Notes under the pieces: model-generated | The model's input: only the letters and a program-made list of their open reading frames with translations | Told to the model about the DNA's origin: nothing | Databases searched by the model: none | Shown: positions 45,985 through 63,763 of the stretch, piece after piece | How positions within the stretch are numbered: position 1 is the first letter of the stretch | Layout: each line of letters begins with the position of its first letter | Source of the DNA: Streptomyces tateyamensis | Lineage (GTDB): Bacteria > Actinomycetota > Actinomycetes > Streptomycetales > Streptomycetaceae | DNA: 64,000 nt | Reading direction: 5' to 3' | NCBI RefSeq assembly: GCF_003205575.1 | Contig: NZ_PYBW01000019.1 | Span: 1 to 64,000 of the forward strand | Program-made: the position numbers and the translations under genes

Positions 45985-46826
45985 CTGGCGGTCAGGCCGT
46001 GGTGGGGGTTCTTCACCCTGGCAGCATGGGCGCGGCGGTTGCAGCCCAGGTCCGTGCCACCGGGGCGACGGTTTTGTGGTGCTCGGCGGGCCGTGGTGCA
46101 TCTACTCGGCAACGGGCGGCCGAGGTCGGACTGACGGAGGTCTCCGGCCTCGGGGAGTTGGTGGGGCGAAGCCAGATCCTGCTGTCGATCTGCCCGCCGG
46201 CTGCTGCCGAGGCCGTGGCCAACGAGGTTGCGGCACACGGTTTCAAGGACGGTGTGTACGTCGAGGCCAACGCCATTACTCCCGGGCGGGTCGGCCGGAT
46301 CGCGGCGGTGCTTCCCGATGCCACGGTGGTGGATGGCTCGGTGATCGGCTCGCCACCGCGTGACGGCAAGCGGCCACGGCTGTTCCTGTCGGGGCCGGGA
46401 GACGCGGCCGACCAGGTGGTGAAACTCTTCGCCGCCACGGACGTTCAGGCCCGCGTGCTCGGCACCGAGCTTGGCCAAGCCAGCGCCCTCAAACTCGCCT
46501 ACACGAGCTACCAGAAGGCGTCGCGGGTGCTCGCCGCGCTGTCGTACGCGCTGGCTGCCGATCACGGCGTCGAGGATGAGCTGCTGGAGGTGGCTGCCGG
46601 CCGCTCGGGAAGCTATCTGCTGGAGACCGGCTACATCGCCAAGACCGCTGCCCGCGCCTGGCGTTGGGGACCCGAGCTGATCGAGGCAGCCGAGTTGCTG
46701 GAGGAGTGCGGGCTGCCGGGTGATCCGATGCGCGGAGCCGCCGACGCGCTCGTCCGTTGGGAGGGCGAGCGAGATGCCGAGCTGGGCCTGGCGGAGGCCC
46801 TGGCTCGGCTCCACAGCTCGCGTTAG
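45981..46826 (+). CDS. 6-phosphogluconate dehydrogenase-like NAD(P)-dependent reductase (DUF1932)
   Basis: A 281-residue reductase of the beta-hydroxyacid dehydrogenase family. The nucleotide-binding start is VVGVLHPGSMGAAVAAQV, where HPGSMG replaces the standard GLGNMG. The catalytic lysine should be in GQASALKLAYTSYQK. The helical C-terminus resembles DUF1932. It is co-translated with the HAD gene and ends tail to tail, with four bases of overlap, with the minus-strand kinase gene. Substrate unknown; a carboxylic acid or imine is likely. Confidence 0.82.
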   Translation: MTGGQAVVGVLHPGSMGAAVAAQVRATGATVLWCSAGRGASTRQRAAEVGLTEVSGLGELVGRSQILLSICPPAAAEAVANEVAAHGFKDGVYVEANAITPGRVGRIAAVLPDATVVDGSVIGSPPRDGKRPRLFLSGPGDAADQVVKLFAATDVQARVLGTELGQASALKLAYTSYQKASRVLAALSYALAADHGVEDELLEVAAGRSGSYLLETGYIAKTAARAWRWGPELIEAAELLEECGLPGDPMRGAADALVRWEGERDAELGLAEALARLHSSR

Positions 46827-47374
46827 CCGACTCGGCCCAGCGCCTTGATGATGGCCTGGGCCGACTCCAGCGCTGGCTGCTGGTCGGTTCGCAGGTGCAG
46901 GGCCCACTCGACCTCCGGGTTCGCCTGGAGATCGGCTGCGGTGGCGTCCCAGGCCGCCAGCCGAGCTTGGGTGTCCGTGTCGCCGCGCAGGGCGGAGCGC
47001 TGCTCGGTCACCGCGCGCGGGCAGTTCAGTTGGACGGTGAGCCAGGCTGTCGGGTAGCCCGTCGCAAGAGCGTTGATGCCGGCGATCTGGCCCAGGTGCA
47101 CGATCGGAATCTGGCCGGCGGCGAAGACTGCGTCGAGCCCGGGGCGGTCCACCAGGTAGATGCTGTTGTAGCGGTCGTTGCGGTAGATGACGTTGCCGGC
47201 GGCTTCGAGCTGGTGGAGCTGCTCGATGGTGCCCATCCGGTAGCCCTGGCTACGGCCTTCGCCGATCTTGAGCCTGGCGAACTGGACGAGCTGCGGATCC
47301 TGCTCGACGAGGGCGGCCGTGATGGTGTCCTTACCGCTGGCGGGAGGTCCGTACAAGATGATCCCGTTCTTCAT
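46823..47374 (-). CDS. Small P-loop kinase, guanylate-kinase-like
   Basis: A 183-residue kinase. GIILYGPPASGKDTITAAL is the Walker A region. YRMGTIEQLHQLEAAGNVIY and NDRYNSIYLVDRPGLDAVFAAGQ resemble the guanylate kinase fold, but the sequence does not fit Gmk well. It begins four bases inside the end of the XRE-kinase gene (ATGA, 47371-47374), so both are one transcript. A nucleoside-, base- or RNA-end-directed kinase is possible. Confidence 0.75.
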   Translation of the reverse strand: MKNGIILYGPPASGKDTITAALVEQDPQLVQFARLKIGEGRSQGYRMGTIEQLHQLEAAGNVIYRNDRYNSIYLVDRPGLDAVFAAGQIPIVHLGQIAGINALATGYPTAWLTVQLNCPRAVTEQRSALRGDTDTQARLAAWDATAADLQANPEVEWALHLRTDQQPALESAQAIIKALGRVG

Positions 47375-48411
47375 GCGTGTGCCACCCCCAGGGCGAATCG
47401 GGCTTGGTCGGTGAGTGCGATGGCGGAGCCGTAGCGGTTGTCCACGACGAGGTGCGGGACGGACGGGCGCAGGCCGAGGTCGAGCCCGTCGAGGTACTGG
47501 CCCCAGTTGCTGAGTTTCCAGGCGTCGCGGGCGGCGGACCGGAAGCCGATGTACTCGCGCATCGAGTCCTCGTCGCAGGTGAGCCAGATCGGGGTGACGT
47601 CGACTTGGTAGGCGGCGCACCGGTTGGTGAGCCGCCGCATCCATGCGGGGTCGGTCATCTCGCTGATGAACGGCGCGGTGGCCACCGTGGAGATGCCGCA
47701 CTCGACGTTGACGAGGATCGACTCCATGAGGCACTGGTACTCCAGCGGCCGTACCTGGGTGCGGTAGGTCTCGGAGTGGCGGTCGTTGGGGTCGCAGCCG
47801 AGTTCGGTGAGCAGTCGCTCCACCAACGGTCGGGTGAGCGGGTCCTTGTCCAGCAGTGGCCAGCCGGTCAGCTGGGAGATGAACTTGGCGAACTCCGACT
47901 TCCCGCTTCCGGCGTAGCCGCCGACCAGGACGAGGGAGGGTCTGTTCGGGTCACCGCCGGTGTGCCGTCGGCGCCAGGCGTCCAGTATCCGCTGGTGGAC
48001 GCCCTGGGGGCGCTCGGCGGTCGGCTCAGGCAGAAGCTGCTGCAGCGCCTTCACCACGGCTCGCACGCGGGTGGTGTCCACGTGATCGCGAAACTCGGTG
48101 AGCTGGTGTTCAACTTCCTCGCCGGGCAGAGCCTTTCGGAAGCCCAGCTCGGGCTCGGTCGCCTGGTACAGCAGGCAGTAGGCGCGGCGGTAGTGAGGGC
48201 CCGGATAGACCTCGCCCTGCTCGTGTTGCCACAGGGTCTGGAAGTTGGCGGCCGGGGCCGAGAGCCCCGCGCGGCGGGCTGTGTCGCGGAGCCGCTCGCC
48301 GGCTGCCTCCAGCGTGAGGCCGTGGGCTTCTCGCATCTCTCGCAACTTCTCGGGGCGCCAGCCCGATCGGTCCTTGCTCAAGTCCGCCACCAGCTCACTG
48401 TTCGTCAGCAC
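47371..48411 (-). CDS. XRE DNA-binding domain fused to a zeta-toxin/AAA_33-like kinase
   Basis: A 346-residue two-domain protein. Residues 15-95 (LREMREAHGLTLEAAGERL...NFQTLWQHEQGEVYPGP) are an XRE-type helix-turn-helix. Residues 150-346 are a P-loop kinase with VLVGGYAGSGKSEFAK and PIWLTCDEDSMREYIGFR (lid arginine), as in zeta toxins and polynucleotide kinases. The GTG at 48411 has a weak ribosome site. It is divergent from the TrpD-like operon and may regulate it in response to a phosphorylated small molecule. A toxin role is an alternative. Confidence 0.78.
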   Translation of the reverse strand: MLTNSELVADLSKDRSGWRPEKLREMREAHGLTLEAAGERLRDTARRAGLSAPAANFQTLWQHEQGEVYPGPHYRRAYCLLYQATEPELGFRKALPGEEVEHQLTEFRDHVDTTRVRAVVKALQQLLPEPTAERPQGVHQRILDAWRRRHTGGDPNRPSLVLVGGYAGSGKSEFAKFISQLTGWPLLDKDPLTRPLVERLLTELGCDPNDRHSETYRTQVRPLEYQCLMESILVNVECGISTVATAPFISEMTDPAWMRRLTNRCAAYQVDVTPIWLTCDEDSMREYIGFRSAARDAWKLSNWGQYLDGLDLGLRPSVPHLVVDNRYGSAIALTDQARFALGVAHA

Positions 48412-48585
48412 GATCCCGAGCGTAGGGGCGAGGCCGTCGATCGCGTGTGTAAGCGGATGTTGAAAACCCGCTGAACGGGACGGCGAGCAACCTCGGCAAC
48501 TCGGAGTGATACGGCGATCACGCTATGCCCGCTGTGATGTTCCTGGCAACAGCGCCCACCGGTACGAACGAACTGGAGGAGCACC
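48412..48585. promoter_or_regulatory. Divergent promoter region of the XRE-kinase and TrpD-like operons
   Basis: 174 bases with no gene. GGAGG lies six bases before the TrpD-like ATG. It is the only place from which both operons can be started, so an XRE operator is expected here. Confidence 0.55.
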
Positions 48586-49698
48586 ATGTTCCGTCCCACA
48601 TCACGCTCTGAGATTCAGTCAGGTGCTCTGGTGCCCAGGCAGATCCGTAGGGTCTCTCCGTCTCCGGGTGCTGCTGATGGCTCGTACTCCGTCGACATGC
48701 AGCAGTTCTCCGAGGCTCTTCACGGCGGCGGAGACGACGCCGACGACTGTTGGCGCGCCTGGGCGCGTCGGCTGCTCGACAGCAACAGCCTCAGCCCGGG
48801 GCTTCTCGCGAGCGTCTGGGCGGAGGTCGTCGCGTTCGACGAGACGCTCGCGGCGTTCCTGGCCAGCCCGGTGCCGGTCCCAGGCCGAACGGTGGTCGTC
48901 TCGGGCAGTGGCAAGGAGACCTTCAAGACGTTCAACGTGTCGACGGCCGCTGCACTGCTGGCCACCGCCAGCGGCGTGAATGTCGTGAAGGGCACCTCGT
49001 CGTCGGTCTCGGCCGTCTCCGGCTCGTCCGACGTCCTGGCGGCGCTCGGCATTCCCACACTGACCGAGCCCAGCCGAATCCCGGAGTTCGTCGCCACGTA
49101 CGGCATCGCCTTCGTCAACTACGCCTCCTTCTGTCCGCGTTACGCGGCCCGCTACGACGGCCGGTTCGATTTCCTCAGCCCGATGAGCTTCTTCATGCCG
49201 GCGGCGACCCTGGTCGTCTCGGCCGATGCCTTCCTGCACGGGCTGGCCCACGACGACGTGGAAACTGCCGCGCTCGGGATCCACGCCGCACGCCCCGATA
49301 TCGCCCGTGGCCGAGTCGTCACGACCTGGGTCGGACCGGGCCAGCGGATCGACGAGCTCGCGTCCTTCGGGACCAGCACCAGCGCTGTGCTGCGGCACGG
49401 TGGCGTGCAACTCCTCAAGCACCACCAGGACGGCGCGGCCGGTCCGTGGCAGCGAGCGGTGCGCCACCGCTCCGATCACGCCTCGAACGCTGCGGCCCTG
49501 GTCGAGTCGCTCCGCCCCGACGGTGACCCGGCCGCCACCGACCTCGTCGAGCGCAACGCCGCAGCCATCCTCGCCACCGCACACCTGGGGGTCGGGGAGG
49601 AGGACGCCCTGCAGTTGGTTCGCGAGGCCCGTCTCGACGGCCGGGCCCAGCGCCTCCTCTCCCGCCTTCGCACCGCCACCTCGAAGGGAATCCGATGA
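48586..49698 (+). CDS. TrpD-like anthranilate phosphoribosyltransferase homologue
   Basis: A 370-residue protein that follows TrpD from end to end. A helical N-terminal domain precedes the PRPP region, where SGSGKETFKTFNVSTAAALL stands in place of GTGGDGAxTFNISTAAAxV. GTSSSVSAVSGSSDVLAALG matches KHGNRSVSSKSGSADVLEALG, and RIDELASFGTS keeps the DE pair that binds Mg-PRPP. The substrate pocket residues after KHGN are changed. It should transfer phosphoribose to an aromatic amine or base other than anthranilate. It is the first gene of a four-gene operon and overlaps the next by ATGA. Confidence 0.82.
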   Translation: MFRPTSRSEIQSGALVPRQIRRVSPSPGAADGSYSVDMQQFSEALHGGGDDADDCWRAWARRLLDSNSLSPGLLASVWAEVVAFDETLAAFLASPVPVPGRTVVVSGSGKETFKTFNVSTAAALLATASGVNVVKGTSSSVSAVSGSSDVLAALGIPTLTEPSRIPEFVATYGIAFVNYASFCPRYAARYDGRFDFLSPMSFFMPAATLVVSADAFLHGLAHDDVETAALGIHAARPDIARGRVVTTWVGPGQRIDELASFGTSTSAVLRHGGVQLLKHHQDGAAGPWQRAVRHRSDHASNAAALVESLRPDGDPAATDLVERNAAAILATAHLGVGEEDALQLVREARLDGRAQRLLSRLRTATSKGIR

Positions 49699-50696
49699 CT
49701 CCTCAGCCCCTGCCGGTCACCGAGGACTGGGTCGCCAAGTCGCTCGGCCCGCTGACTCGCCGGTTCACTCACCACGACCAGCTCCAGGCCGTCCTCCCGC
49801 TCGAGGCCGACCGGCCGCTGGCGGTCGTCACCGGCTTCGGCCCCACCAACGCTCCCACGGCCGGCACGCTGTCCGTGATGCTCGGGGTCATCGAGCTGCA
49901 GCGCTACCTCCGAGTGCCGATGACCGTCATCGTCTCCGAGCTGGGCGCCTGGAACTCCCGGAACGTGTCGTGGAGCCAGCTCACCGACGTCCGCGACCAG
50001 ATGTTCGCCTTCATGCGGGTGATCGGCCTCGACTCCCAGGCCGGGATCGCCCCGGTGCAACTGCGTTCGCACATCGACCAGGCCAACCTCGTGCGCTGCG
50101 GGCGAATCGCCCGCTTCCTCAGCCGCCAGGACTTCCTCGACCACCACGAGGACTTGGTGGACCTCTACCAGGACCACGGCCTGCTCGGCAGCGAGGTCGG
50201 CCTTACCATCGACGCGCTCTACACCGTGGCCGACATCCTCGGCCCGGCAGAGGAAGGCGCCGCGCGGGTGCTGATGCTCTCCGGCCTGGAAGAGAGCTAC
50301 TTCACCGAGCTCTCCCGCCTCGTCCTCCAGCGGCAGCGTGAGGCCGGCGACCTCAGCCTTGGCTGGCAGTTAGACCTCGGCGCGCTGTACTTCCGGGTCC
50401 TGGAGGGGCTCGGCGGCTACCCCAAGATGTCGAAGAGCATCCCCGCTTCGGGCATCCACCTCGGGATGCCCGACGACGAGATCGCCGGACGCATCCTCGC
50501 CGACGACGAGGCCAGCCAACGGCCGCTGCTCTCGGCGATCGAGCTGAGCAGCGGGTGGACCATGGTGGAGATCGACCACGCCCGCGCGACGTACCAGCGC
50601 AGGCGCCAGGAACCCGCCGGCTGGACGCTGAGCAAGCAGCGGTTCGCCGAGACGTTCGCCACCTACGCCAAGATCTGGCGTGAGTGCGGCCGGTGA
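49695..50696 (+). CDS. Divergent tryptophanyl-tRNA synthetase-like enzyme
   Basis: A 333-residue class I synthetase of the Trp/Tyr group. GFGPTNAPTAGTLSVML replaces the TrpRS start GxxPTGxxHLGN, so the HIGH motif reads TAGT. GYPKMSKSIPAS keeps KMSKS. The length equals normal TrpRS, but the sequence is only distantly similar to the TrpRS gene that lies 3 kb away. It may adenylate Trp or a Trp-like amino acid for use in a small molecule, or charge tRNA. It is in the middle of the operon, overlapped at both ends. Confidence 0.75.
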   Translation: MTPQPLPVTEDWVAKSLGPLTRRFTHHDQLQAVLPLEADRPLAVVTGFGPTNAPTAGTLSVMLGVIELQRYLRVPMTVIVSELGAWNSRNVSWSQLTDVRDQMFAFMRVIGLDSQAGIAPVQLRSHIDQANLVRCGRIARFLSRQDFLDHHEDLVDLYQDHGLLGSEVGLTIDALYTVADILGPAEEGAARVLMLSGLEESYFTELSRLVLQRQREAGDLSLGWQLDLGALYFRVLEGLGGYPKMSKSIPASGIHLGMPDDEIAGRILADDEASQRPLLSAIELSSGWTMVEIDHARATYQRRRQEPAGWTLSKQRFAETFATYAKIWRECGR

Positions 50697-51616
50697 CAGC
50701 CGAACCGGCGTACATCGTGCTCGGAGGTGCCGGCCGACTCGGCCGGCACCTCCTCCCGAAGGTCCGTGCGCAGGGCGGCCGCGTCATCGGCATCTCCCGC
50801 GCCCGGCCCAGCGAGCCCGCGGAGCGGTATGCGGACTGGGTACGCGCCGACCTCACCGAGACCGCCCGCTGGCCGCAGGTGCAGGAAGCGCTTCGCACCC
50901 TGCTCGATGGCCAGAACGAGGTAGTGATCGCGGACCTCCTGCTTGACCGGGGCAGCGTCACCTCCATGCGCCAGTCGATCGCTGCAGCCACCCGCTTCGT
51001 CGTCCGGACGCGCCAGATGCTCGTTGCCGAGGGACTCGCGGTGAGAGTCCGCGCCGCCAGCACCACGGCCGCGCTGGCACCGCGCGGCCTGCAAACCCCC
51101 TACGGAGTGGCCAAACGCGAACAAGCCCTCATCTACTCGCGGTTGGACTGCATCGACCTGGTTCTCCTGCCGCAGCTGGTTGCTGTCGACCAGGCGGCAG
51201 GTCCGACGGACGGCGACAGCGTGACCAGCGGCGGGAGCTGTTCCTATGAGGCGGCAGCCGGAGCACTGCACGCTGTCAGTTTCCAACCGGCCGGGCGATC
51301 TCTCTGGGTCGTCCGCAGCGACGTCCCGTACCAACCGACTCCGCGCGGTCTCGCCGGCCTTCCCAGCGCGGTCGGCGCCCTGATCGCCTCGCGAACCACT
51401 GGCCGGGACAGCCCCACCGCGCATCGCCAGGCCAGCCGCGAACGCCTGGCCCTCCTGCCGACTCACATCCGGGCCCGCGTCGACCACCACGGCGCCCCTG
51501 AGCAGCTACTCCGCCCGTTCGAGAGACGCCTGCACATGCCACGCGCCCGAACCGTCATCGCGGGCAGTCAGCCCGCACCCGACCAACCGGAGGAAGACCG
51601 TGCACACCGCCCCTGA
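50693..51616 (+). CDS. NAD(P)-binding Rossmann-fold reductase/epimerase-like protein
   Basis: A 307-residue protein starting AEPAYIVLGGAGRLGRHLLPK (GxxGxxG), with DLTETARWPQVQEAL and STTAALAPRGLQTPYGVAKREQ, where YGVAK matches the YxxxK catalytic pair of extended short-chain dehydrogenases. It lacks a clear match to a named epimerase. I chose the GTG at 50693 that overlaps the stop of the synthetase-like gene. The C-terminus runs about 17 bases into the FAD-oxidase gene. Confidence 0.75.
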   Translation: MTAEPAYIVLGGAGRLGRHLLPKVRAQGGRVIGISRARPSEPAERYADWVRADLTETARWPQVQEALRTLLDGQNEVVIADLLLDRGSVTSMRQSIAAATRFVVRTRQMLVAEGLAVRVRAASTTAALAPRGLQTPYGVAKREQALIYSRLDCIDLVLLPQLVAVDQAAGPTDGDSVTSGGSCSYEAAAGALHAVSFQPAGRSLWVVRSDVPYQPTPRGLAGLPSAVGALIASRTTGRDSPTAHRQASRERLALLPTHIRARVDHHGAPEQLLRPFERRLHMPRARTVIAGSQPAPDQPEEDRAHRP

Positions 51617-52643
51617 GACCGTGGTCCTCGGCACAGGCTTCGCCGGCCTCACTGCGGCGGTGCGGCTGGCCGAGGACGGCCACCGCCTGCGCTGCCACGG
51701 CGACAGCGCTATCGGAGCCTCGCAGCAGAACTTCGGGCAGCTCCACTCCGGCGCCGTCTACGCCCCCGTGCTCCCCGAGGTGGCCGCCGCCTGCTGGCAG
51801 CACCGGACCCGGTGGTTCAGCCTGCTCGGCTCGGAGGTCTCGCGCTCGCACGGTCTGGCGCTGTTCTCCAGCCACGCCGAGGTCGAGCGGTACACACGGG
51901 CGTGGTCGAACCTCGATATCCCCGTACGTCCGTTGTCCACTCGGGAGCTGGACAGCGCAGGAGTTCTCCCGTGGCCCGCCCCGGACGCCGCCTTCGCCCT
52001 TCCCGACATCTCGGTGGACGTGACGGCCCTGCGCGCCAGGACCCAGGCGCACGCGGCGAACCTGGGCGTCCCCTTTGCTCCGCCCGAGTCGTGCGCTCCC
52101 GTGTTGTCCGGCAACGAGGTCATCCTGTGGGGACCGTCCCTCGGGTACTACCGACCCGGCACTCTGGTCCTCGCCGCAGGGCACCGCACGGTCCATCTGC
52201 TTGACCTGCTCGGCATCCAACACCCGCTCGCCATCAGCCGCCTGCCGTACGGGGTGCTGGAAGGCTCGAACCAGCAGCACCCGCTCACCTACTGGCTCGA
52301 CGGCGACATGCTCGCACTCAGCCCCCAGCCGAACGGGCTCCACGTAGCTCTGCCCGGCCGACCCACGGATCCCATAGACGAGAGCAAGGAGCACTACCGT
52401 CTCGCAGCCTCGCTCGCCGAACGCTGGCCCGCACTCCCGGCCGAGAAGCTCCGCCTCAGGTGGGGACAGGTTGCCGAGCCGGCGGGCGTCCAGCCTGACC
52501 CGTCGGCCCTCGTGGTCGACCTCAGCTCCCCTCCCCCGGGGTGGGGCCAGGTAGCCAACCTGATCGTCTGCCTGCCCGGCAAGTGGACCACTGCCTGGCA
52601 TGCAGCCGACCAGGTGGCTCAGGCGGTAGCCACGAGAATCTGA
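51600..52643 (+). CDS. FAD-dependent oxidoreductase of the DAO family
   Basis: A 347-residue flavoenzyme. TVVLGTGFAGLTAAVRLAED is the FAD-binding dinucleotide motif, and SQQNFGQLHSGAVYAP fits the DAO/L-2-hydroxyglutarate oxidase group. TLVLAAGHRT near residue 190 is the second FAD-contact strand. GGAGGA lies just before the GTG at 51600. It may oxidise an amine or hydroxy acid made by the upstream enzymes. It ends only 12 bases before the stop of the converging trpS. Confidence 0.8.
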   Translation: MHTAPETVVLGTGFAGLTAAVRLAEDGHRLRCHGDSAIGASQQNFGQLHSGAVYAPVLPEVAAACWQHRTRWFSLLGSEVSRSHGLALFSSHAEVERYTRAWSNLDIPVRPLSTRELDSAGVLPWPAPDAAFALPDISVDVTALRARTQAHAANLGVPFAPPESCAPVLSGNEVILWGPSLGYYRPGTLVLAAGHRTVHLLDLLGIQHPLAISRLPYGVLEGSNQQHPLTYWLDGDMLALSPQPNGLHVALPGRPTDPIDESKEHYRLAASLAERWPALPAEKLRLRWGQVAEPAGVQPDPSALVVDLSSPPPGWGQVANLIVCLPGKWTTAWHAADQVAQAVATRI

Positions 52644-52655
52644 CCAGCAGTCAGG

Positions 52656-53675
52656 TCAGCCGATTCCGACGGCCTTGCGGACCTGCTCCAACACCGGGTG
52701 GGCGCGCTTCCGGGCCTTTGCCGCCCCGATGGCCAGCAGCTCCTCAAGCTCGCTGCCGGGCTGCATCAGCTCGTCGTAACGCGCGCGCATCGGCCCCAAC
52801 TCCTCGCTGAGGACCGCGTAGAGCTCGTTCTTGAGATCACCCCAACCCATCCCGCCGGCCTCCAGCCGGGCGCGGACGTCGGCCGTCCTGTCCGGGCTGG
52901 CGAAGTGGGTGAGCAACTGGAACACCGAGGAGGCGTCGGGATTCTTCGGCGCCTCCACTGGCGTGCTGTCGGTGGGAATCCGGCGCACGATCTTCCGGAT
53001 CTCCGCCTCGGGAGCGAAGAGCGGGATCGTGTTGCCGTACGACTTGCTCATCTTCCGCCCGTCGGTCCCGGGCAGGGTTCGGCCGCTGTCCTCGGTGGGA
53101 ACGACAGCCTTGGGGATCTTGAGCCGGAAGCTGTCGCCATAGACGGCATTGAAGGCTCCAGCGATATCGGCCGCGTACTCGACGTGCTGCAGTTGGTCCT
53201 TGCCGACTGGAACGAGGTCGGCCTCCATGATCAGGATGTCAACTGCCATCAGCACCGGGTAGTTGAACAGCCCCATGTTGACCCCGGCGTCGAGGTCCTC
53301 CACGCCCGCCTCACGGTTCCGGTCCCGCGCGGCCTTGTAGGCGTGGGCCCGGTTCATCAGCCCCTTGGCGCTGAAGCACGAGAGAACCCAGTGTAGTTCG
53401 AAGATCTCCGGCACGTCCGACTGACGGTAGAAGATCGTCCGCTCCGGGTCGAGCCCGGCGGCCAGCCAGGTGGCCGCGACCGACCGGGTCCATCGCGCGA
53501 GCAACTCCGGATCGCGCACCGACGTCAGAGCGTGGTAGTCCGCGATGAAGTAGATGGACTCGGCTCCGTCAGCCAGCTCCAGCGCCGGCTTGATGGCTCC
53601 GATGAAGTTGCCGAGATGCGGCTCTCCAGTGGGCTTGATGCCGGTGAGCGACACCTTGAGATCAGCATTCACCAT
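52656..53675 (-). CDS. trpS: Tryptophanyl-tRNA synthetase, accessory copy
   Basis: A 339-residue TrpRS. The HIGH motif is GIKPTGEPHLGN, KMSKS is DGRKMSKS, and the AMP/Trp-binding region includes VPVGKDQLQHVE and FNYPVLMAVDILIMEAD. It does not resemble the usual streptomycete housekeeping TrpRS (which begins with SGIQPT...HLGNYLGA) but a separate clade. An extra TrpRS is known to protect producers of indolmycin and chuangxinmycin. The ATG at 53675 begins MVNADLKVS; no strong ribosome site is visible. It converges on the four-gene operon. Confidence 0.88.
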   Translation of the reverse strand: MVNADLKVSLTGIKPTGEPHLGNFIGAIKPALELADGAESIYFIADYHALTSVRDPELLARWTRSVAATWLAAGLDPERTIFYRQSDVPEIFELHWVLSCFSAKGLMNRAHAYKAARDRNREAGVEDLDAGVNMGLFNYPVLMAVDILIMEADLVPVGKDQLQHVEYAADIAGAFNAVYGDSFRLKIPKAVVPTEDSGRTLPGTDGRKMSKSYGNTIPLFAPEAEIRKIVRRIPTDSTPVEAPKNPDASSVFQLLTHFASPDRTADVRARLEAGGMGWGDLKNELYAVLSEELGPMRARYDELMQPGSELEELLAIGAAKARKRAHPVLEQVRKAVGIG

Positions 53676-54916: not shown

Positions 54917-56392
54917 GTGCCTGCTGCTGCCGAGTCCGCTGTGTCGCGCGAGGATCTCCTCGCGCTGGTCGCGGTGCTGCGTGAGCAGAACGCGGCGTTG
55001 GCCGAGCAGAACGCGGTGCTGTCGGCGCGGGTCGTGCAGCAGGACGCGGAGATCGAGCGGTTGCGGGGGCGGGTCGCGGAGCTGGAACGGCGGCTGGACC
55101 GCAACTCCGGGAACTCGAACCTGCCGCCCTCGACGGACCTGTTCGGCCGCCCGAAGCCCGACCCTGAGCCGAGGAGCCCGCGGGCACGCGGCAAGCAGAA
55201 GGGCGCCCCGGGCTCGGGGCTGGTGATGGTCGAGGCCCCGGACCGGGTCGAGGACCACCGCCCCGCCAACTGCGCCGATTGCGGGGAGGGGCTCGGCGGG
55301 CGGGCGTCGGCGGGCTTCGCGCGCCGCCAGGTCTTCGACGTCCCGCTGGTGAGCGTGGCGGTAACCGAGCACCGGCTGCACAAGATCGCTTGCGACTGCG
55401 GGCACGTCACCGTCGCGACCGCGCCGGACCTGGTCGCCGGCTCGCCGTCCTCCTACGGGCCGAACCTACGCGCGCTGGCCGCCTACCTGCTGGTCCACCA
55501 GCACGTGCCGGTCGAGCGGACCGCGGAGCTGATCGCGGACCTGACCGGCGCCGCGGTGTCCACCGGCTGGGTCTCCTCGGTCCTGGCCGAGGCCGCCGAC
55601 CTGACCGTCGGCTCCGTCGACCTGATCCGCGCCCTCCTCACGCTCGGCCATGTCCTGCACGCCGACGAGACCACCACCCGGATCGGCAGCGCGCGCCGCT
55701 GGCTGCACGTCGCCTGCAACGACAGGCTCACGCTGCTCGGCCTCGCCCCGCGCTCGAAGGCCGGCGCCGACACCCTCGGGGTACTGCCCGGCTTCCGCGG
55801 CACCCTGGTCCACGACTCCCTGTCCTTCTACGGCGGTTACGCGGACACCGCCCACCAGCTGTGCGGCGCGCACCTCGTGCGTGAGCTGACCGCCGCCGAG
55901 GAGGACTGGCCGAAGCAGAAGTGGCACCAGCAGATCCGCTGGGCCTTGGCGGGGCTGAACCGGCAGGCCAGGCGCGTGCGAGGCGGCGAGATCCCCGAAA
56001 TCCCGCCCCGGAGCCTGGAGTTCTACCAGCGGCACTACCACCAGGGCGTCAACGTCGGCCTCTCCCTCCACCCCAGAGCCGAGGGCCGCAAACAGACCCG
56101 GGCCCGCAACCTCCTCGAACGCCTCCGCGACCGCGCGCACGACGTGCTCCGCTTCGCCGACCACCCGAAACAGGTCCCCTTCACCAACAACACCGGCGAG
56201 AGAGCACTCCGCCCGGTGAAGACCCAGGTCAAGATCTCCGGCTGCCACCAGTCCGAAACAGGTGCCGCGGCCTGGCTCGCCGTGCGCTCCTACCTCGACT
56301 CCGCCCGCAAGCACGGCCTGAGCGCCTTCGACGCCATCCACCGCGCCTTCACCGGCAACCTCTGGATGCCACCCATCGCCCTGCCCGCCTGA
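54917..56392 (+). mobile_element. IS66-family transposase
   Basis: A 491-residue IS66 (TnpC) transposase. A leucine-zipper-like start (LLALVAVLREQNAALAEQNAV) is followed by the RNSGNSNLPPSTDLFG region, a zinc finger (CADCGEG...CDCGH), and the DDE catalytic domain: D in HADETTTRIG, D in VHDSLSFYGG and E in NNTGERALRPVK. No TnpA/TnpB partner genes are seen, as in short IS66 forms. Terminal inverted repeats could not be identified by eye. The element has interrupted an alpha/beta hydrolase gene on its right. Confidence 0.9.
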
Positions 56393-57616: not shown

Positions 57617-59392
57617 TCAGCGCCTGGCCCGGGTGGCCGGAGTGTGCGGCTGCGCTGATGAAGGTGTGGGCACTGGCGTGGGCGTCGGGGCGGTGACGGG
57701 CATACGGGTGGTGGGGCTCTTGGCGAGTGCGGCATGGGTGCGGCGCTCCTCGGGTTTGGTCGTGGGTGTGGGGGTGGGTAGGCCGGTGTCACGGCGGATG
57801 CGCCAGGTGAGGACTGCGGCGGGCGAGTCAGCGGCGGCGAGTTCGCGTCGGCCGGCTGCCTGGGCGAGCAGGACTGTGGGGTCGTGGCCGGCAGCTTCGG
57901 CCTCGGCGAGGGTGGCGGCGAGCGCGTTCCAGCCGTTCTCGTCCAGCACCCTGGTGGCCTGGGCGGCGGGAAGTGCCTGCCGGACGGCCTGCGCCTGCCG
58001 GTCGCGCATGGGTTGGGCCAGGCGCCGGCCCTGGATGTCGAGGTGGGCGATCGGCTTGCCGGCGTGCCGCGCATAGGCGGTTCGCAGGTGGGCGGCAGCC
58101 TCGCGGGCGTGGCCCGCCTGGTGTTGGTGGCCGCGTGCGGCATGCCACTTGGCGATGACGATGGCCAGCAGGACCAGGCTGGAGAGGATGGTGGCGGCGG
58201 CGGTGCCGTCCTCCCCTCGGTTGCCGGTGGGTCCGGCGTGGAGGATGGCGCGGGCGGCCGAGCGCATGGCGCGCCGGTCCGCGCTGGCGGCGCGGGTCTG
58301 CGTGACGGCCGTGTATTCGAGGGCGCGGGCGGCCTGGTTGATCTCCTTGCGGGTGAGGACGGGGCTGGTTGCGGCGAGGGAGTCGAGGATCTCGATACCG
58401 TCGCTGATCATCGCCCCGGCTAGGCCGGCCACCTGGTCGTCGTCGAGGGCGGGCAGGGCGCCGTCGATGACGATGCTGGCCTGGTGGCGCCCGGAGGTGG
58501 GCCAGGTGCGCTGGTCGGGGTCCGGGTAGGCGGGCTGGTCGATGCCTGCGGCGAAGCGGGCCTGGATCTTGGGCCGGGTGAGGTCAGGGGCGAGCTTGCT
58601 GCCGGAGAACCAGAGCGGCTCGTCGCCTTCGGAGTTGGGGAGGGCGAAGGTGTAGCCGGTCACGTCGCCCGAGGGCGCGCGGCGCACGCCGAGTAGCACG
58701 CCCTGGCCGGCGAGCCGGGCGGTGAACTCCTCCTCGTCGCCGGCCCCGGCGAGGGCACGGCGCACGGCGGTGCGCAAGCTCTGGCGCTGAGTCTCCTCCA
58801 GGCCGAGGCGCTTGGCCTTGTGGATCTCGGAGCCCTTGGCGCGCTTGGGGATGGCCGCGCGGTACTCCTTCGTGCGGGTCTCGGACAGATCGCGCAACCG
58901 GTACTGGTGCTCGATCTCGGTGAGTTCGTCCTCCACACGGTCCTGGTCCTTGCGCAGGCGGGCCTGCTTGAGGTTGGCGCGCACGGTGGTGGCGAGGATG
59001 TGGATGTGGTCGTCGGCGTGGCGCACGGCGATCCAGCGGCAGCCGTCCGGGTCGCCGTCGGGGGCGATGCCTGCGGCGGCCACGATGCGGCGGGCGATGT
59101 CGCCCCACTCCTCGTCGCTGAGGATGCGGTCACTCGCGTCGGCGCGCACGGGTCGGTGGTAGACGTGCTTGTCGATCTTCCTGCCGTATTGGACGACGTG
59201 CAGGTCGAGGGCGTCCCGGAGCTGGGCGAGCGTGGCGGTGCGCTCGCGGCGGGGCACGCGTCCGGGATCGGGGGCGAAGCCGTCCCAGGACGCGACGATG
59301 TGCGGGTCGGTGTGCTCGTTGTGCTTGCCGGGCCCGAAGAGGTACTTGAGTGCTCCGCGGGTGTCGGAGCCGGGGATGGGCTTGCTGATCAC
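57617..59392 (-). CDS. Relaxase/mobilisation nuclease (MOBP-type)
   Basis: A 591-residue relaxase that nicks oriT and pilots the strand in conjugation. ALKYLFGPGKHNEHTDPH holds the candidate catalytic Tyr; AVRHADDHIHILATTVR is the histidine triad (HxxDxxHxH type) that binds the metal. A hydrophobic segment (ILSSLVLLAIVIAKW) near residue 405 could anchor or contact the coupling protein. The C-terminus is Pro/Thr-rich. It begins four bases inside the end of mobC (ATGA, 59389-59392). Confidence 0.85.
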   Translation of the reverse strand: MISKPIPGSDTRGALKYLFGPGKHNEHTDPHIVASWDGFAPDPGRVPRRERTATLAQLRDALDLHVVQYGRKIDKHVYHRPVRADASDRILSDEEWGDIARRIVAAAGIAPDGDPDGCRWIAVRHADDHIHILATTVRANLKQARLRKDQDRVEDELTEIEHQYRLRDLSETRTKEYRAAIPKRAKGSEIHKAKRLGLEETQRQSLRTAVRRALAGAGDEEEFTARLAGQGVLLGVRRAPSGDVTGYTFALPNSEGDEPLWFSGSKLAPDLTRPKIQARFAAGIDQPAYPDPDQRTWPTSGRHQASIVIDGALPALDDDQVAGLAGAMISDGIEILDSLAATSPVLTRKEINQAARALEYTAVTQTRAASADRRAMRSAARAILHAGPTGNRGEDGTAAATILSSLVLLAIVIAKWHAARGHQHQAGHAREAAAHLRTAYARHAGKPIAHLDIQGRRLAQPMRDRQAQAVRQALPAAQATRVLDENGWNALAATLAEAEAAGHDPTVLLAQAAGRRELAAADSPAAVLTWRIRRDTGLPTPTPTTKPEERRTHAALAKSPTTRMPVTAPTPTPVPTPSSAQPHTPATRARR

Positions 59393-60159
59393 CGGCGCTT
59401 CGCCTTCGCCAGGCGCGTCGCCGCACTGTCGATCTCAGCGATCACCTGGCGGCCCTTGTCGAACGCCCGGTGGACGGCGATGGCGGCGTCGCGGACCGCG
59501 GAGGGCTCGAGGTCGATGCCGGAGTTGTGGTCGCGGCCGAGCTGGTTGAGGTTGTTGGCCGCGCCGGCGTACTGACGCCGAAGCGCGCGCAGCTCGTCGA
59601 TCGCCTCGTCCAGGCGCGCATCGCGGTCGCCGACGCCGCAACCGCCGTCGGCGGACAGCACCTTGAGGGAGAGATAGTGCGCCACGGCGAGATGCTCGGC
59701 GGCGGCCCGCCGCTCGATCTCGGCTTTCACCTCGGGGCTGACGCGGAAGGAGAGCTTGGTGTGCTTCGGGTTCTCGTCGTCGCGGCGGCGGCGCTTGGGC
59801 GCGCGGTGGGCGTCGGCTCGATCGGCACGGAGTGCGACGCGATGCGCGGCGCGAGCGGGTACGACAACGGCGAGCGGCAGCGAGTCGGCGGCGCGCGCGG
59901 GCGCGGAGCTGCTGGGCTTCTCCTCCTTCGCCGCGCCCTCGCGGTGAAGGTCCGGTGTTGCCGAGCGCGCCCCCGCGCTCGGCAACACCGGCTCGTCCAC
60001 GCCCCCCTGGGCGTGGACGTCCGCGTCCGGACCCCGATAAGGGGTCCGGACGCACTCGCTTGCTCCGCTGTTGACCTGGCTCCGGTCAACTCCCTTGCAG
60101 GACAGTGAGGTTACAACACCGGCCGGGTGCTCGTGCGCGGCCGGTCGGGTGGTGGTCAC
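59389..60159 (-). CDS. MobC-like relaxosome protein
   Basis: Up to 256 residues. The conserved part is the C-terminal half: KHTKLSFRVSPEVKAEIERRA (ribbon-helix-helix) and LRRQYAGAANNLNQLGRDHNSG, the MobC core. The first about 110 residues are low complexity and run through three perfect DNA hairpins, so the true start may lie further in. GTG 60159 has GGAG seven bases upstream and is the best start by ribosome site. It helps the relaxase load at oriT. Confidence 0.8.
   Translation of the reverse strand: MTTTRPAAHEHPAGVVTSLSCKGVDRSQVNSGASECVRTPYRGPDADVHAQGGVDEPVLPSAGARSATPDLHREGAAKEEKPSSSAPARAADSLPLAVVVPARAAHRVALRADRADAHRAPKRRRRDDENPKHTKLSFRVSPEVKAEIERRAAAEHLAVAHYLSLKVLSADGGCGVGDRDARLDEAIDELRALRRQYAGAANNLNQLGRDHNSGIDLEPSAVRDAAIAVHRAFDKGRQVIAEIDSAATRLAKAKRR
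59952..60053. repeat. Three consecutive perfect hairpins, oriT candidate
   Basis: Inverted repeats with arms 59952-59969/59974-59991 (18 bases, 4-base loop), 59994-60004/60009-60019 (11 bases, 4-base loop) and 60023-60035/60041-60053 (13 bases, 5-base loop), all perfect, lying back to back. They sit at the 5' end of mobC, the usual oriT position in mobilisable elements. Confidence 0.7.
60070..60090. repeat. Fourth inverted repeat next to the triple hairpin
   Basis: Perfect 7-base arms (60070-60076 and 60084-60090, GTTGACC/GGTCAAC) with a 7-base loop. It may be a binding site for MobC or another relaxosome protein. Confidence 0.5.
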
Positions 60160-60253
60160 AGGGGTGCTCCAGGGATGGACTGGTGGTGGAGGTGGGGCGA
60201 GTGTCCGGCGGGGTGGGCTGGCCGAGCCGGTGCGGCATCACGGTCGGGCTGCC

Positions 60254-60280
60254 GGGTGTCCGGTGCGTCGCCGGACACCC
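60254..60280. terminator. Hairpin after the DUF2637 gene
   Basis: Perfect 10-base arms (60254-60263 and 60271-60280) with a 7-base loop, five bases beyond the minus-strand stop at 60286. Likely terminator of the upstream operon before mobC. Confidence 0.6.
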
Positions 60281-60285
60281 GCTGG

Positions 60286-61248
60286 TCAACGCCTGCCGCG
60301 CTGTTCGGCGTCGTTCCTCTCGGCGCGCAGGATGCCCATGACGTCGGTCAGGCGGTCGCCGGAGATCGTTACGCCCCTGGCGCGGACGGCCTTGCGGACA
60401 CTGGCCCGGCTGAGCCGTCCGGTGCGCTGCCACGCCTGGCGGCCGATGTCGGCGAGCGCCTCCTTGGAAGCGCCCGGCGGACGGCCGACGGGCTTGGCTG
60501 CCCTTGCGGGTGAGGGAGTTCCGGACAGGCCGTGCCCGGTGGTTCCGCGGTCGACGCTGTCCTGGGTCCGGGCGTGCTCCTCACCAGCTGGAGCGGGCGA
60601 AGGCGGCTCCGCCGGTCCGTCGCCCTCGTCGCCCGTCCGCTTGGGGGAGGGATTTCCGAACAGGGCCTGACCTGCGGATTCGTGGTCGGTCTGGTCGCCA
60701 GACGGAGGCGCCGCGAGGGCCGTGGACGGGCCAGTCTGGGCGGTGGCCGGCTCGACGGTGCTGGCGGTCGCCGTGGACGAGCGGACGCGCTCGCGCTCCA
60801 CGGCGACCCCCTGGTCGAGGGGTGCGGACGGGTCGCTGGCGGCGTGGCGGCCGGGAGTTCCGGACGCTGTGGCGGTCGCGGCCTCGGACAGGGCTGCTGC
60901 CGTGTCGGGAACCGGACGGCTGGCAGGGCGGAGACCGTGGCGGGCGATGAGGATGTACAGATGGACGGACCCGCCGAGGGCGAGTGGGGCGAGGGTGGAC
61001 AGCAGGCCGACGACGCTGTACGCGTCGCGCAGGACGAGCAGGGCCCGGACTCCGTAGGCGATGAACCCGTCGACGATCAGTGGAAAGAGGTAGGTGAGAG
61101 GGCCGCGCACGTGGACGGCGACGGCCATCTGCTGGAGCGCGTCATACGAGAGCGCGAAGCCGGCGGCGCCGAGGAGAGCGACCGCTATGCGGTCCCAGGC
61201 GCTGGCACGCCGTTCCGGCAGCGTGGCGCGGCGGATGGTGGTGGGCAT
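60286..61248 (-). CDS. DUF2637 membrane protein with C-terminal DNA-binding-like region (SpdA-type)
   Basis: A 320-residue protein. Three membrane segments in the DUF2637 domain (IAVALLGAAGFALSYDAL, LFPLIVDGFIAYGVRALLVL, LLSTLAPLALGGSVHLYIL) are followed by a long disordered stretch and a C-terminal helical RLSRASVRKAVRARGVTISG region. Such proteins lie in actinobacterial integrative elements near rep genes and are linked with plasmid spread. I chose the ATG at 61248; a GTG at 61311 would cover a palindrome. Confidence 0.75.
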   Translation of the reverse strand: MPTTIRRATLPERRASAWDRIAVALLGAAGFALSYDALQQMAVAVHVRGPLTYLFPLIVDGFIAYGVRALLVLRDAYSVVGLLSTLAPLALGGSVHLYILIARHGLRPASRPVPDTAAALSEAATATASGTPGRHAASDPSAPLDQGVAVERERVRSSTATASTVEPATAQTGPSTALAAPPSGDQTDHESAGQALFGNPSPKRTGDEGDGPAEPPSPAPAGEEHARTQDSVDRGTTGHGLSGTPSPARAAKPVGRPPGASKEALADIGRQAWQRTGRLSRASVRKAVRARGVTISGDRLTDVMGILRAERNDAEQRGRR

Positions 61249-61310
61249 GAGGGGCTTGGTGCTCCGAGGTCGTTGAGGGGGATCCGAGGCCGGGCCGTGG
61301 TGGGCGCGCA

Positions 61311-61340
61311 CGCGTTTCCCCTCTTAAGGAGGGGAACGCG
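61311..61340. promoter_or_regulatory. Inverted repeat upstream of the DUF2637 gene
   Basis: Arms 61311-61323 and 61329-61340 with one bulged T and a TTAAG loop, in the 288-base gap between the helicase stop (61537) and the DUF2637 start. It could be an operator or a terminator of the helicase gene. Confidence 0.5.
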
Positions 61341-61536
61341 CGTGCGGCTGGCGGCGCGTGAACGGCATGCAGGGACGCGTGCGCTGTGGGCTCACCGATT
61401 TCGGTGGTCTGCATGCGCGGTGTGGGCGGCTCGTGGTGGCCGGCACGCCCGGTGGCGCGTGATCGACTGCGTGATCCGCGCCGCCGGGGTGGCCGCCCGT
61501 CCTACGCGGGCCGGGCGAGCACCGAGCCGAAGCCGG

Positions 61537-63099
61537 TCAGGACACTGCGGCGATGTGCCGGACCGTGGAGCGGTATCGGGTCTGCTGGCCGCCTCCGGTC
61601 CCGCCCGTGGTGCCGTCCTGGCGGGTGGCCTTGCCGGCCTTGACGAGGGTCTCCAGGCGCCTGCGGGCCTTCTCGATGTCGGAGCGGTCCGGGTCGGCCT
61701 CGCCGGTCAGTCGGCAGGCCAGCTCGCGCGCGGTCATGCCCTGCGGGGAGGCGGAGAGGATGGCGGCCGGGTCGAGGGCAGCCTCGACGGTCGAGGTACC
61801 CCGTGTGTGGTCGTGGACCACCGACAGCGGGCCGACGTCCCCGGTGACGGTCTTGAGCTGGTGCAGCTTGACGATCGGATCCCCGGCCGCGCCGCCGAGG
61901 AACAGCACGCTGCCGGCTCCGGCGGTGAACCACGCCGACCCGTACACCCGGTCCAGGACCGGCCGCTCGCCGCGTTTGGCGTCGCCGCCGGACTTGCGCT
62001 GGTGGTGCAGCTCCAGCAGCTGGGTGCCGGAGCGCAGGAGCCGCTGGCGGGCGTTGTTGTAGGACAGCCCGGCCTCGTCGTCGGTGAGCTTGCCGACGAC
62101 GTCCTTGAGGCTGTCGATGACCACGGTGTCCGCCCGGTGGGCCTCGGCCATCTCGGCCAGCAGGTTGGGCTCCCGGTCGAGGCCGGCGGGCAGCGGACCA
62201 GTCCAGAAGACCAACCGCTCCGCGAGGTGGCGCCGGTCGGCGGGCATGACGCGGCGGGCGAAGGCGCGGGCGATCTGCGGCGGGCGGTCCATTGCCAGGT
62301 AGAGGACACGCTCGCCCTCGGCGACCGGCATGTCCAGCACGGCCGACAGCAGGCCGAGGCGGGCCAGGACGACTTGGTGGGCGATCGTGGTTTTGCCCAC
62401 GCCCGGCGGGCCGACCAGCATCAGGGACTCGCCGTCGGCCCAGGCGGTCTGCTCGCGGCTGCCCCAGATCGGGGCGACCTGGTCGCCGAGGTCCTGGACG
62501 AATGACCAGCCGTCCACCGCGAACCTCGTCAGCCGCTGACCCCCTGAGCCGAAGCCCCGATCGGCGGCACTGGACAGCTCGGCGTCGAGCGCGGCCTTGA
62601 TCCGCTCCGGGTCGGCGCCCTCGGCGTCGGTCTGCTGGAGCAGACGGACGGCGGTGGCCTGCCAGCGCCGCAGCTCGGCCTTCTCCCGCACGATCTGCGC
62701 GTGGTAGTCCGCGCCGGAAACCGGGATGGCGGCGGTGAACAGGCGGGCCAGGTAGGACGGGCCGCCGACCCGGCTGAGGTTGCCGCCCTTGGCGAGCTGA
62801 GCGCCGACGGCGATCGGGTCCGTCGGGGCGCCCTCGTCTCGCAGAACGAGCAGCGCGCGCCAGATGTCGCTGTGGGCGGGCCGGTAGAAGTCGCCCGGCT
62901 CAAGGATCGGGCGGATCACGTCGATGGCCTCCGCCTGGAACATGCCGGTGCCCAGCACCATCGCCTCGGCGTCCAGGTCGTGCGGCGGCACCGGCAACCC
63001 GCCCAGCCCAACCAGGGCCGACGAGGTGGGATCGTCGTCCTGGAAGGGGGGTGCGGTGCGGGGGGCGGGAAACGTACCGGGAAACGTACGCTGGGACAC
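61537..63099 (-). CDS. DnaB-N/AAA RepA-like helicase
   Basis: A 520-residue protein. Residues 35-150 are the DnaB N-terminal domain (DLDAEAMVLGTGMFQAEAID... and PTDPIAVGAQLAKGGNLSRVG). Residues 215-420 are a RecA/AAA_25 ATPase with GPPGVGKTT and TVVIDSLKDV. A C-terminal winged-helix-like region follows. It resembles the RepA-type helicases of integrated plasmids. The GTG at 63099 has AAGGAG four bases upstream; the open frame upstream lacks similarity. It probably drives replication of the excised element. Confidence 0.8.
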   Translation of the reverse strand: MSQRTFPGTFPAPRTAPPFQDDDPTSSALVGLGGLPVPPHDLDAEAMVLGTGMFQAEAIDVIRPILEPGDFYRPAHSDIWRALLVLRDEGAPTDPIAVGAQLAKGGNLSRVGGPSYLARLFTAAIPVSGADYHAQIVREKAELRRWQATAVRLLQQTDAEGADPERIKAALDAELSSAADRGFGSGGQRLTRFAVDGWSFVQDLGDQVAPIWGSREQTAWADGESLMLVGPPGVGKTTIAHQVVLARLGLLSAVLDMPVAEGERVLYLAMDRPPQIARAFARRVMPADRRHLAERLVFWTGPLPAGLDREPNLLAEMAEAHRADTVVIDSLKDVVGKLTDDEAGLSYNNARQRLLRSGTQLLELHHQRKSGGDAKRGERPVLDRVYGSAWFTAGAGSVLFLGGAAGDPIVKLHQLKTVTGDVGPLSVVHDHTRGTSTVEAALDPAAILSASPQGMTARELACRLTGEADPDRSDIEKARRRLETLVKAGKATRQDGTTGGTGGGQQTRYRSTVRHIAAVS

Positions 63100-63184
63100 G
63101 GAACTCCTTGCGTGGTGCCGTGCGGCTGGCAGGCCGGCGGCACCCGTGTTGATCGTTATTTGTGGGCGGTCGTCAGGAGTCGTC

Positions 63185-63216
63185 TCGGCCCTTGGTGCTT
63201 CAACACCAGGGGCCGA
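63185..63216. terminator. Hairpin between the small regulator gene and the helicase
   Basis: Stem of 13 pairs with one G-U (63185-63197 and 63204-63216) and a 6-base loop, followed on the plus strand by CCCCTTTT. It could also be an operator for the helicase gene. Confidence 0.5.
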
Positions 63217-63382
63217 CCCCTTTTCCCGGAGTCCGCGCCGTTCGCGGGTCCCCGGGTGGGCGCGGTCAGGCCGCGCGGGCCACGGCACCGGCCGTGGCGG
63301 TCCCCATCAGGTCGGCCAGGCGGGCCGCGCTTCGGGGGCGCGGGCGAGGAGAAGGAGAGGCCGGGCAGGGCTGCTCTGCCGG

Positions 63383-63763
63383 TCACGACTTGGCCGCCTT
63401 CGACGCAGGGGCGTCAGAGCTCGCGGCCAGGCCCGCGATGGCCAGCGACTGGGCACGGTAGGCCACGCCCTGCTGCACGTGGCCGTTGAAGACGTTCGCC
63501 CACGGGGTGACGACCAGACCGACCGGGCGCACGACCGCACCCGCAGTCAGCGAGGGGTCCACCCCGCATTCGGGAACGGTGACCTTGATCAGCTGGGCGG
63601 TGCCCTCGTAGGTCTCAAGCAGGTGGACGGTGTAGAGGGTCGCGCCACTCTCACGGTCGGTGGCGACCTTCCCAGTTGCCGCGTCCACCAGCTTCGGGAC
63701 GGCCGGGGTGGCGACCATGTGCACGGTGTCGGTCAGGTCGGGACGGATGGTGATGCGAGCCAT
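63383..63763 (-). CDS. Small regulator-like protein of integrative elements (SCO3933-like)
   Basis: A 126-residue protein starting MARITIRPDLTDTVHMV, with LYTVHLLETYEG and a later VGLVVTPWANVF. It resembles the small SCO3933-type regulatory proteins of streptomycete integrative elements such as SLP1. GGAG lies five bases before the ATG at 63763. It is the first visible gene of the minus-strand replication-mobilisation block. The role is not established. Confidence 0.6.
   Translation of the reverse strand: MARITIRPDLTDTVHMVATPAVPKLVDAATGKVATDRESGATLYTVHLLETYEGTAQLIKVTVPECGVDPSLTAGAVVRPVGLVVTPWANVFNGHVQQGVAYRAQSLAIAGLAASSDAPASKAAKS

Follow-up and report, generated by a model that had tools for sequence, protein, structure and literature searches.

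Among described conjugation systems, those with MOBP relaxases come closest to the DNA analyzed here. At their transfer origins (oriT), as described in PMC3772185, an inverted repeat is followed directly on its 3' side by the nick region, whose consensus is (C/T)ATCCTG(C/T). PMC4175270 describes how, in the IncU plasmid RA3, a ribbon-helix-helix (RHH) MobC with the NLNQ motif, the motif of the MobC clade that accompanies MOBP relaxases, is encoded just before a MOBP relaxase; oriT lies beside mobC, several inverted repeats are present, and nicking takes place outside the gene, at a distance of 50 nt on the upstream side of the predicted start of mobC transcription. MTnSag1 has its oriT inside a resistance gene, an arrangement for which a 2017 review proposes a chance origin (PMC5704250). 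According to the same review, Streptomyces ICEs move double-stranded DNA, and among canonical mobilizable elements both oriT and nick were known at that time for some members from Bacteroidetes and Firmicutes only. Later work predicts relaxase-type ICEs in Streptomyces (PMC9513070), and a survey of Mycolicibacterium plasmids reports no known oriT by database comparison (PMC8190616). In the excerpts covered, actinobacterial transfer is described as TraB-type and T4SS-type (PMC5704250, PMC3218068, PMC9513070, PMC12857230, PMC8190616), one of these five works having limited its relaxase search to MOBF.

We analyzed 64,000 nt of Streptomyces tateyamensis DNA (contig NZ_PYBW01000019.1), the whole of which is called the window below. 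It contains a cluster of hairpins that, judging by sequence comparison, is very probably an oriT. We consider it highly likely that the cluster serves a mobile element as its oriT, that the element's relaxase is MOBP-like and that the site is embedded in the open mobC frame (Table 1). Like the MOBP origins served by RP4 TraI and VirD2, the window family has a conserved nick region immediately preceded, on the strand that we predict to be cut, by an inverted repeat, and an HUH-type relaxase is encoded beside the site. Unlike them, the Streptomyces loci have the core CTTGCT[C/G], preceded by variable bases, and several hairpins in a row that lie inside the mobC coding frame. RA3 shares the NLNQ-bearing MobC before the relaxase, the oriT beside mobC and the presence of several inverted repeats, and differs in having its nick outside the gene. 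MTnSag1 shares the placement within a coding gene; here, in contrast to a chance origin, the arrangement recurs in 72 of 74 loci and inside a gene of the relaxosome itself. Actinobacterial plasmids, Streptomyces plasmids among them, have the same core-and-hairpin unit together with a homologous relaxase and MobC.

Table 1. Positions of the features discussed; window coordinates except in the last row, which concerns two other loci
Feature	Positions	Strand	Description
Relaxase gene	57617..59392	-	591 aa; 4-nt overlap with mobC
mobC	59389..60159	-	256 aa; GTG start at 60159, GGAG upstream
Hairpin D	59926..59949	+	imperfect; loop of 4 nt, 10-bp stem including one mismatch; within mobC
Hairpin C	59952-59969/59974-59991	+	perfect 18-bp stem, loop 4
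Hairpin B	59994-60004/60009-60019	+	perfect 11-bp stem, loop 4
Hairpin A	60023-60035/60041-60053	+	perfect 13-bp stem, loop 5
Nick-region core	60053..60068	-	GCGGAGCAAGCGAGTG (plus strand CACTCGCTTGCTCCGC); 16-mer with one A/G choice
Predicted nick	60062..60063	+	CTTG|CTCC, predicted from the MOBP site YATCCTG|Y
DUF2637 protein gene	60286..61311	-	upstream of mobC, same direction
DnaB-N/AAA replication-type protein gene	61537..63288	-
SCO3933-family regulatory protein gene	63383..63763	-
Resolvase + Recombinase proteins	L006 15176-16951; L009 66-1811		45% mutual identity

The initial annotation had pointed to three hairpins with arms of 18, 11 and 13 bases and no mismatches, within 3 bases of each other at the 5' end of mobC. 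Exact stems of these lengths were confirmed, separated by 2 bases (C to B) and 3 bases (B to A) and spanning approximately codons 36-70 of the mobC frame; in the reading direction of mobC, the core comes first, then hairpins A, B and C, and then the remaining gene. Three such stems together are far beyond chance. The window contains 15 perfect stems with arms of at least 10 and loops of 3-8, as against 0-3 in each of 12 dinucleotide shuffles of the whole window, in which the longest arm was 12. Folded as single-stranded DNA, positions 59940-60080 gave z = -11.5, and none of 200 shuffles folded as well. Two other identities for the hairpins were tried and rejected: a terminator, because within 59900-60400 none of the stems has a T run after it, and a known RNA family, no Rfam match having been found at E up to 0.5 in 59000-61500. 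Separately, another perfect 11-bp stem at 60253-60281, just after the DUF2637 gene, is perhaps a terminator without a T run.

Two further copies of the module are present in the host genome (7.46 Mb, 439 contigs), on contigs C405 and C17. Their relaxases are 70% identical to that of the window and their MobC proteins 64% and 49%; the C17 copy retains hairpins A and B with different letters, and hairpin C was not found there as a stem. Scanning genome contigs with the three own-genome relaxases identified 472 related stretches. The set analyzed below consists of 83 loci: the window, the two other own-genome copies and the best 80 of the 472 relatives. A MobC match was present in 78 of the 83 and absent from L040, L058, L065, L066 and L075. 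The core ([G/C]AGC[A/G]AG) with one or more hairpins was found in 74 of the 83. Among the 78 MobC-bearing loci, L026 had no candidate core, and L023, L085 and L086 were left out, their best candidates (phases 2, 2 and 0) not being a core with a close hairpin; a separate core search found none in these four or in the five loci lacking a MobC match.

Within the 74 loci, the core 7-mer is GAGCAAG in 65, CAGCAAG in seven and GAGCGAG in two, and the stem of hairpin A begins 11-12 nt from the first core base in 61. Hairpins starting no more than 105 nt from the core number three or more in 51 loci, two in 21 and one in 2. The summed stem score, averaged over the 74 loci, was 29.4, compared with 4.8 after mononucleotide shuffling. 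In its outer 9 bp, hairpin A pairs with itself at 8.65 of 9 positions, and at 2.91 when arms are exchanged between loci that differ in sequence (36 distinct 5' arms); because the cross-paired stems had been selected as stems, the shuffle is the fairer control. Among seven close relatives, 12 pairs had changed on both sides, compared with 4.7 in shuffles, and none of 500 shuffles scored as high. Hairpin A covaries best (9 of 13 pairs changed on both sides), followed in these seven by hairpin B (2 of 11, with 87.0% of cells paired), and hairpin C covaries least (1 of 18, with 78.7% paired). The comparison indicates that the hairpins are maintained through compensatory change while their letters vary, hairpin C only partly so.

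Exactly three copies of the 16-mer GCGGAGCAAGC[A/G]AGTG are present in the 7.46 Mb genome, one for each copy of the module and all of them at a mobC-relaxase pair; the reversed 16-mer used as a control does not occur in the genome at all. The window octamer TCGCTTGC (60056-60063) is three bases off YATCCTGY. By analogy with the MOBP sites, the cut is predicted to lie outside the hairpins, on the plus strand 9 nt to the right of hairpin A. Hairpin A, which adjoins the nick region, is likely to be the inverted repeat bound by the relaxase.

Plasmids provide a closer match to the MOBP consensus. A related relaxase was present in 276 plasmid records, and 12 of these were fetched for comparison; MOB-suite typed five of the 12 as MOBP and seven as non-mobilizable. 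The core and hairpin A lie upstream of mobC-relaxase in ten of the 12, from eight genera (Arthrobacter, Paenarthrobacter, Gordonia, Rhodococcus twice, Curtobacterium, Brevibacterium, Micrococcus and Streptomyces twice), with a variant core in L092 and L095. In one Gordonia and two Rhodococcus plasmids (L089, L090 and L096), the sequence reads TATCTTGC, one base off (C/T)ATCCTG(C/T), and the hairpin is 5' of the core on that strand. The oriT is intergenic in ten of the 12. It precedes a short mobC by 108-219 nt, its phase relative to mobC varies, and five of the ten have stops in between. The Streptomyces plasmid L098 is embedded, its core being present and unregistered by the hairpin rule of the plasmid count, and the Nocardiopsis plasmid L093 is the one among the 12 in which no core was found. 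The initial annotation's suggestion of an oriT thus gains support from sequence comparison: the near-invariant core, the compensatory hairpins and the plasmid relatives all speak for it.

These observations also bear on whether the hairpins act mainly as RNA, attenuating the mobC-relaxase mRNA or slowing its translation. Two points favor such a function: the RNA of the minus strand has a folding energy of -103 kcal/mol (z = -7.8), and the hairpins come early in the operon. It would nevertheless leave unexplained why a near-invariant core sits at near-fixed spacing beside hairpin A, and why core and hairpin are found upstream of mobC in the plasmids; nor does the array show a terminator-like T run or an Rfam match. 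We therefore think it unlikely that the hairpins are primarily RNA elements. An RNA function can be an additional role of hairpins that belong to an oriT.

The two proteins of the mobC-relaxase pair resemble relaxosome components. MobC matches the NikA-like family PF21983 with 31 bits (cut-off 27) and the MobC family PF05713 with 20.9, under the cut-off of 23.2, and within its NLNQ motif, N203, N205 and Q206 are invariant in 27 rows. The peptide encoded at the hairpins had been described as low in complexity; it is so, and in the AlphaFold model MobC residues 1-94 have pLDDT below 50, mostly confident helices following after approximately residue 140. The model thus predicts a disordered stretch of residues 1-94 with the NikA/MobC-like part after it. 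The Pfam Relaxase family (PF03432) had no match at E 0.01 to the window relaxase or anywhere in the genome; its homologs L061 (49% identity) and L098 (53%) score above the Pfam cut-off. Residues Y17, H125, H129 and H131 are invariant in 12 diverse rows, and we take them to be the conserved N-terminal tyrosine and the H-x-D-x-H-x-H motif of HUH relaxases. The top VIA-align match of the relaxase model is MobM bound to its oriT (Z 11.4, rmsd 3.5, 162 aligned), with MobA of R1162, 4ht4 (presumably NES), TrwC and TraI at Z 8-9; the list also holds unrelated helical matches to the C-terminal part. Foldseek returned nothing under E 0.001, although MobM ranked among its best matches, and when the sequences of the three own-genome relaxases were searched against solved structures, the single match (E 0.26) was unrelated. 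As modeled, the relaxase has an HUH relaxase fold.

Reportedly, the oriT of ICEBs1 lies near the start of nicK. In the family described here, the core occupies the same mobC codon phase in 73 of 74 loci (L039 included, though it is not embedded), and the frame is open through oriT in one phase in 72 of 74. The distance from the core to the mobC stop takes 23 different lengths among the 72 embedded loci, all equal modulo 3, much of this phase-keeping variation falling beyond the hairpins in the reading direction of mobC. From 66 nt before to 110 nt after the core, the mobC frame contains stops in one of 73 loci (L039), whereas the other two forward frames contain them in 58 and 38 of the 73. 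An ATG or GTG stands exactly 22 codons upstream of the core codon in 55 of the 72 embedded loci, compared with 17 of 1606 other in-frame codons. In the window's own group, the start codon is 31 codons before the core. Loci without an ATG or GTG at the usual place include OWN3, which has a CTG behind AAGGAG, and L077, which has an ATG 7 codons before the core; the start candidate of L009 is a CTG behind AGGAG. The stop count, the 1606-codon background, the cross-pairing counts, the tree labels and the codon-position comparison below carry L039 as embedded, and the recount over 72 loci is without it.

In 53 of the 70 loci with an assigned start, the first codon of mobC and a TGA share bases in the form NTGA; the A would follow by chance at a frequency of approximately 0.24, and 45 of these 53 overlaps terminate an upstream open frame of at least 60 codons. 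The upstream neighbor was judged by this direct count, a search for GC patterns being ambiguous. The overlap suggests that mobC is translationally coupled to the gene upstream.

In a comparison of 120 pairs of loci drawn from 38, the third codon position received 0.30 of the changes in the hairpin region and 0.30 in the leader, and 0.63 in the rest of mobC; codon-level selection on the encoded peptide, sought as a third-codon excess, was found in neither the hairpin region nor the leader. Because of this, translation through the site is argued from frame, stops and starts. It seems that the DNA structure sets the sequence and that MobC tolerates the encoded stretch as a loose tail.

In a second alternative, the oriT is genuine, translation of mobC begins only beyond the hairpins, and the open frame that precedes this start is an untranslated leader. 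It draws on the leader's lack of third-position excess, on the intergenic oriT of the plasmid relatives and on two sister Kitasatospora loci, L014 and L039, that are not embedded: in L039, the frame is closed by a stop after the core, with an ATG preceded by AGGA on the far side of the hairpins, and in L014 the core is out of the mobC phase and there is a similar downstream ATG. Such a leader is hard to reconcile with a phase preserved in 73 of 74 loci, mobC-frame stops confined to L039 while the other frames are interrupted so often, a start codon fixed 22 codons upstream in 55 of 72, and the NTGA overlap in 53 of 70. We accordingly regard an untranslated leader as improbable, and return to an oriT embedded in a translated mobC. 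In L014 and L039, mobC is again outside oriT, and these loci offer a natural test of the effect of embedding.

A tree of 91 relaxases, midpoint-rooted for drawing only, with several intergenic rows on long branches and L039 labeled as embedded, separated 13 intergenic rows from the remainder at 99/92. On this tree the embedded state needs two changes, and L014 and L039 are sisters (100/99) within the embedded group; the pattern fits one capture of oriT by mobC and one later release. Across the phylum, the relaxase was found at E 1e-8 or better in 13 of 396 genomes, its own included. We examined 17 of the 19 loci outside its own genome, leaving out the partial hits L111 and L112. Four of the 17 are embedded and three have a core outside an open mobC frame (the stem of L110 being weak); no core was found in the other ten, which comprise partial hits and the strong same-family relaxases L105, L115 and L116.

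In the window, the minus-strand tract reads SCO3933-family regulator, DnaB-N/AAA protein, DUF2637 protein, NikA/MobC-like protein, relaxase. Over the 83 stretches of at most 17 kb, a DnaB-type neighbor recurs in 3, an SCO3933-type neighbor in none and DUF2637 in 34. Multi-hairpin arrays are known at rolling-circle and telomere-like replication origins, and the element has a replication-type gene, yet it is very improbable that the array is a replication origin or other palindromic element (a rolling-circle double-strand origin or telomere-like palindromes) instead of an oriT, since the core-hairpin unit tracks the relaxase gene while the DnaB-type, SCO3933-type and DUF2637 neighbors vary among loci, and since in three plasmids, as in RP4, an inverted repeat is followed on its 3' side by an octamer resembling a nick site.

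The window's contig ends at 64131, before the element does. No pore or TraB family matched among the 18 window proteins scanned, and a VirD4-type protein is encoded elsewhere in the genome, on contig C212; for these reasons, the element may depend on a helper for transfer. AICEs carry a TraB/FtsK gene for double-strand transfer; FtsK-family matches in the genome lie on contigs other than the three that bear the module. Canonical integrative and mobilizable elements combine an integrase with a relaxase and lack type IV pore genes of their own. Resolvase and Recombinase domains occur together in proteins of 591 and 582 aa that are encoded approximately 8 kb from the C405 relaxase and near the L009 relaxase, and those of L006 and L009 are likely to be serine integrases.

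Next to the mobilization genes, 45337-53675 encodes a HAD hydrolase, a DUF1932 protein, an HTH/AAA protein, a Glycos_transf_3 protein, an epimerase, a DAO oxidoreductase and a tRNA-synt_1b protein of the Trp/Tyr class, which we read as TrpS-like. An IS66-family transposase (54917-56392) lies between the relaxase region and this trpS-like gene. The 45337-53675 segment is possibly biosynthetic cargo. Kin of it were found in one of the 83 loci, Kitasatospora L010, where 3' of the relaxase the TrpS-like (91% identity), DAO (72%), epimerase (62%) and 49695-50696 (87%) proteins have relatives in the same order; perhaps this is a travelling cluster with a self-resistance trpS.

We propose that the embedded oriT would work as follows. 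mobC would be translated through the site, and MobC and the relaxase would assemble on it in supercoiled form, as MOBP systems suggest. The relaxase would bind hairpin A on the plus strand, nick that strand at 60062/60063 and remain on the 5' end at 60063, and MobC would bind part of the hairpin array. The DUF2637 side and the replication gene would then enter the recipient first and mobC-relaxase last, and hairpins A-C would form the end of the transferred strand and aid re-joining. Because the plus strand, the one to be nicked, is the mobC template, the nick would separate the start codon from the main part of mobC; each nick would thus cut the gene near its start, to be restored only by re-joining. 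Read-through probably allows an oriT to exist within a tightly packed operon.

A more speculative extension, which we put forward tentatively and find doubtful as a whole, is that mobC is a self-splitting gene, the relaxosome cutting the template strand of its own mobC. An intact mobC-relaxase operon would exist only in the un-nicked or re-joined element. Relaxosome synthesis would be off during strand exit, and expression in the recipient would be delayed until the circle closes. One embedding event would have occurred, in a relaxase lineage mainly of Streptomycetaceae, when translation of mobC came to be coupled to that of a gene upstream. Finally, read-through of the hairpins would prevent shortening of the operon transcript.

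In the literature covered, partly as excerpts and with most subscription journals outside its scope, we found neither an oriT inside mobC nor an oriT of this Streptomyces relaxase lineage. The new point is that oriT appears, from comparison of the loci, to lie inside the protein-coding part of mobC, an arrangement conserved in dozens of relatives. If the oriT is translated, always in one frame although the lengths vary widely, this would be a clear case of a DNA structure and a reading frame in one sequence. The core-plus-hairpin rule could aid oriT finding in actinobacteria, where seven of the 12 fetched plasmids were typed as non-mobilizable. Overall, a relaxase lineage with 472 relatives among the scanned stretches has a predictable single-strand transfer origin, and its mobility and its cargo therefore become testable.
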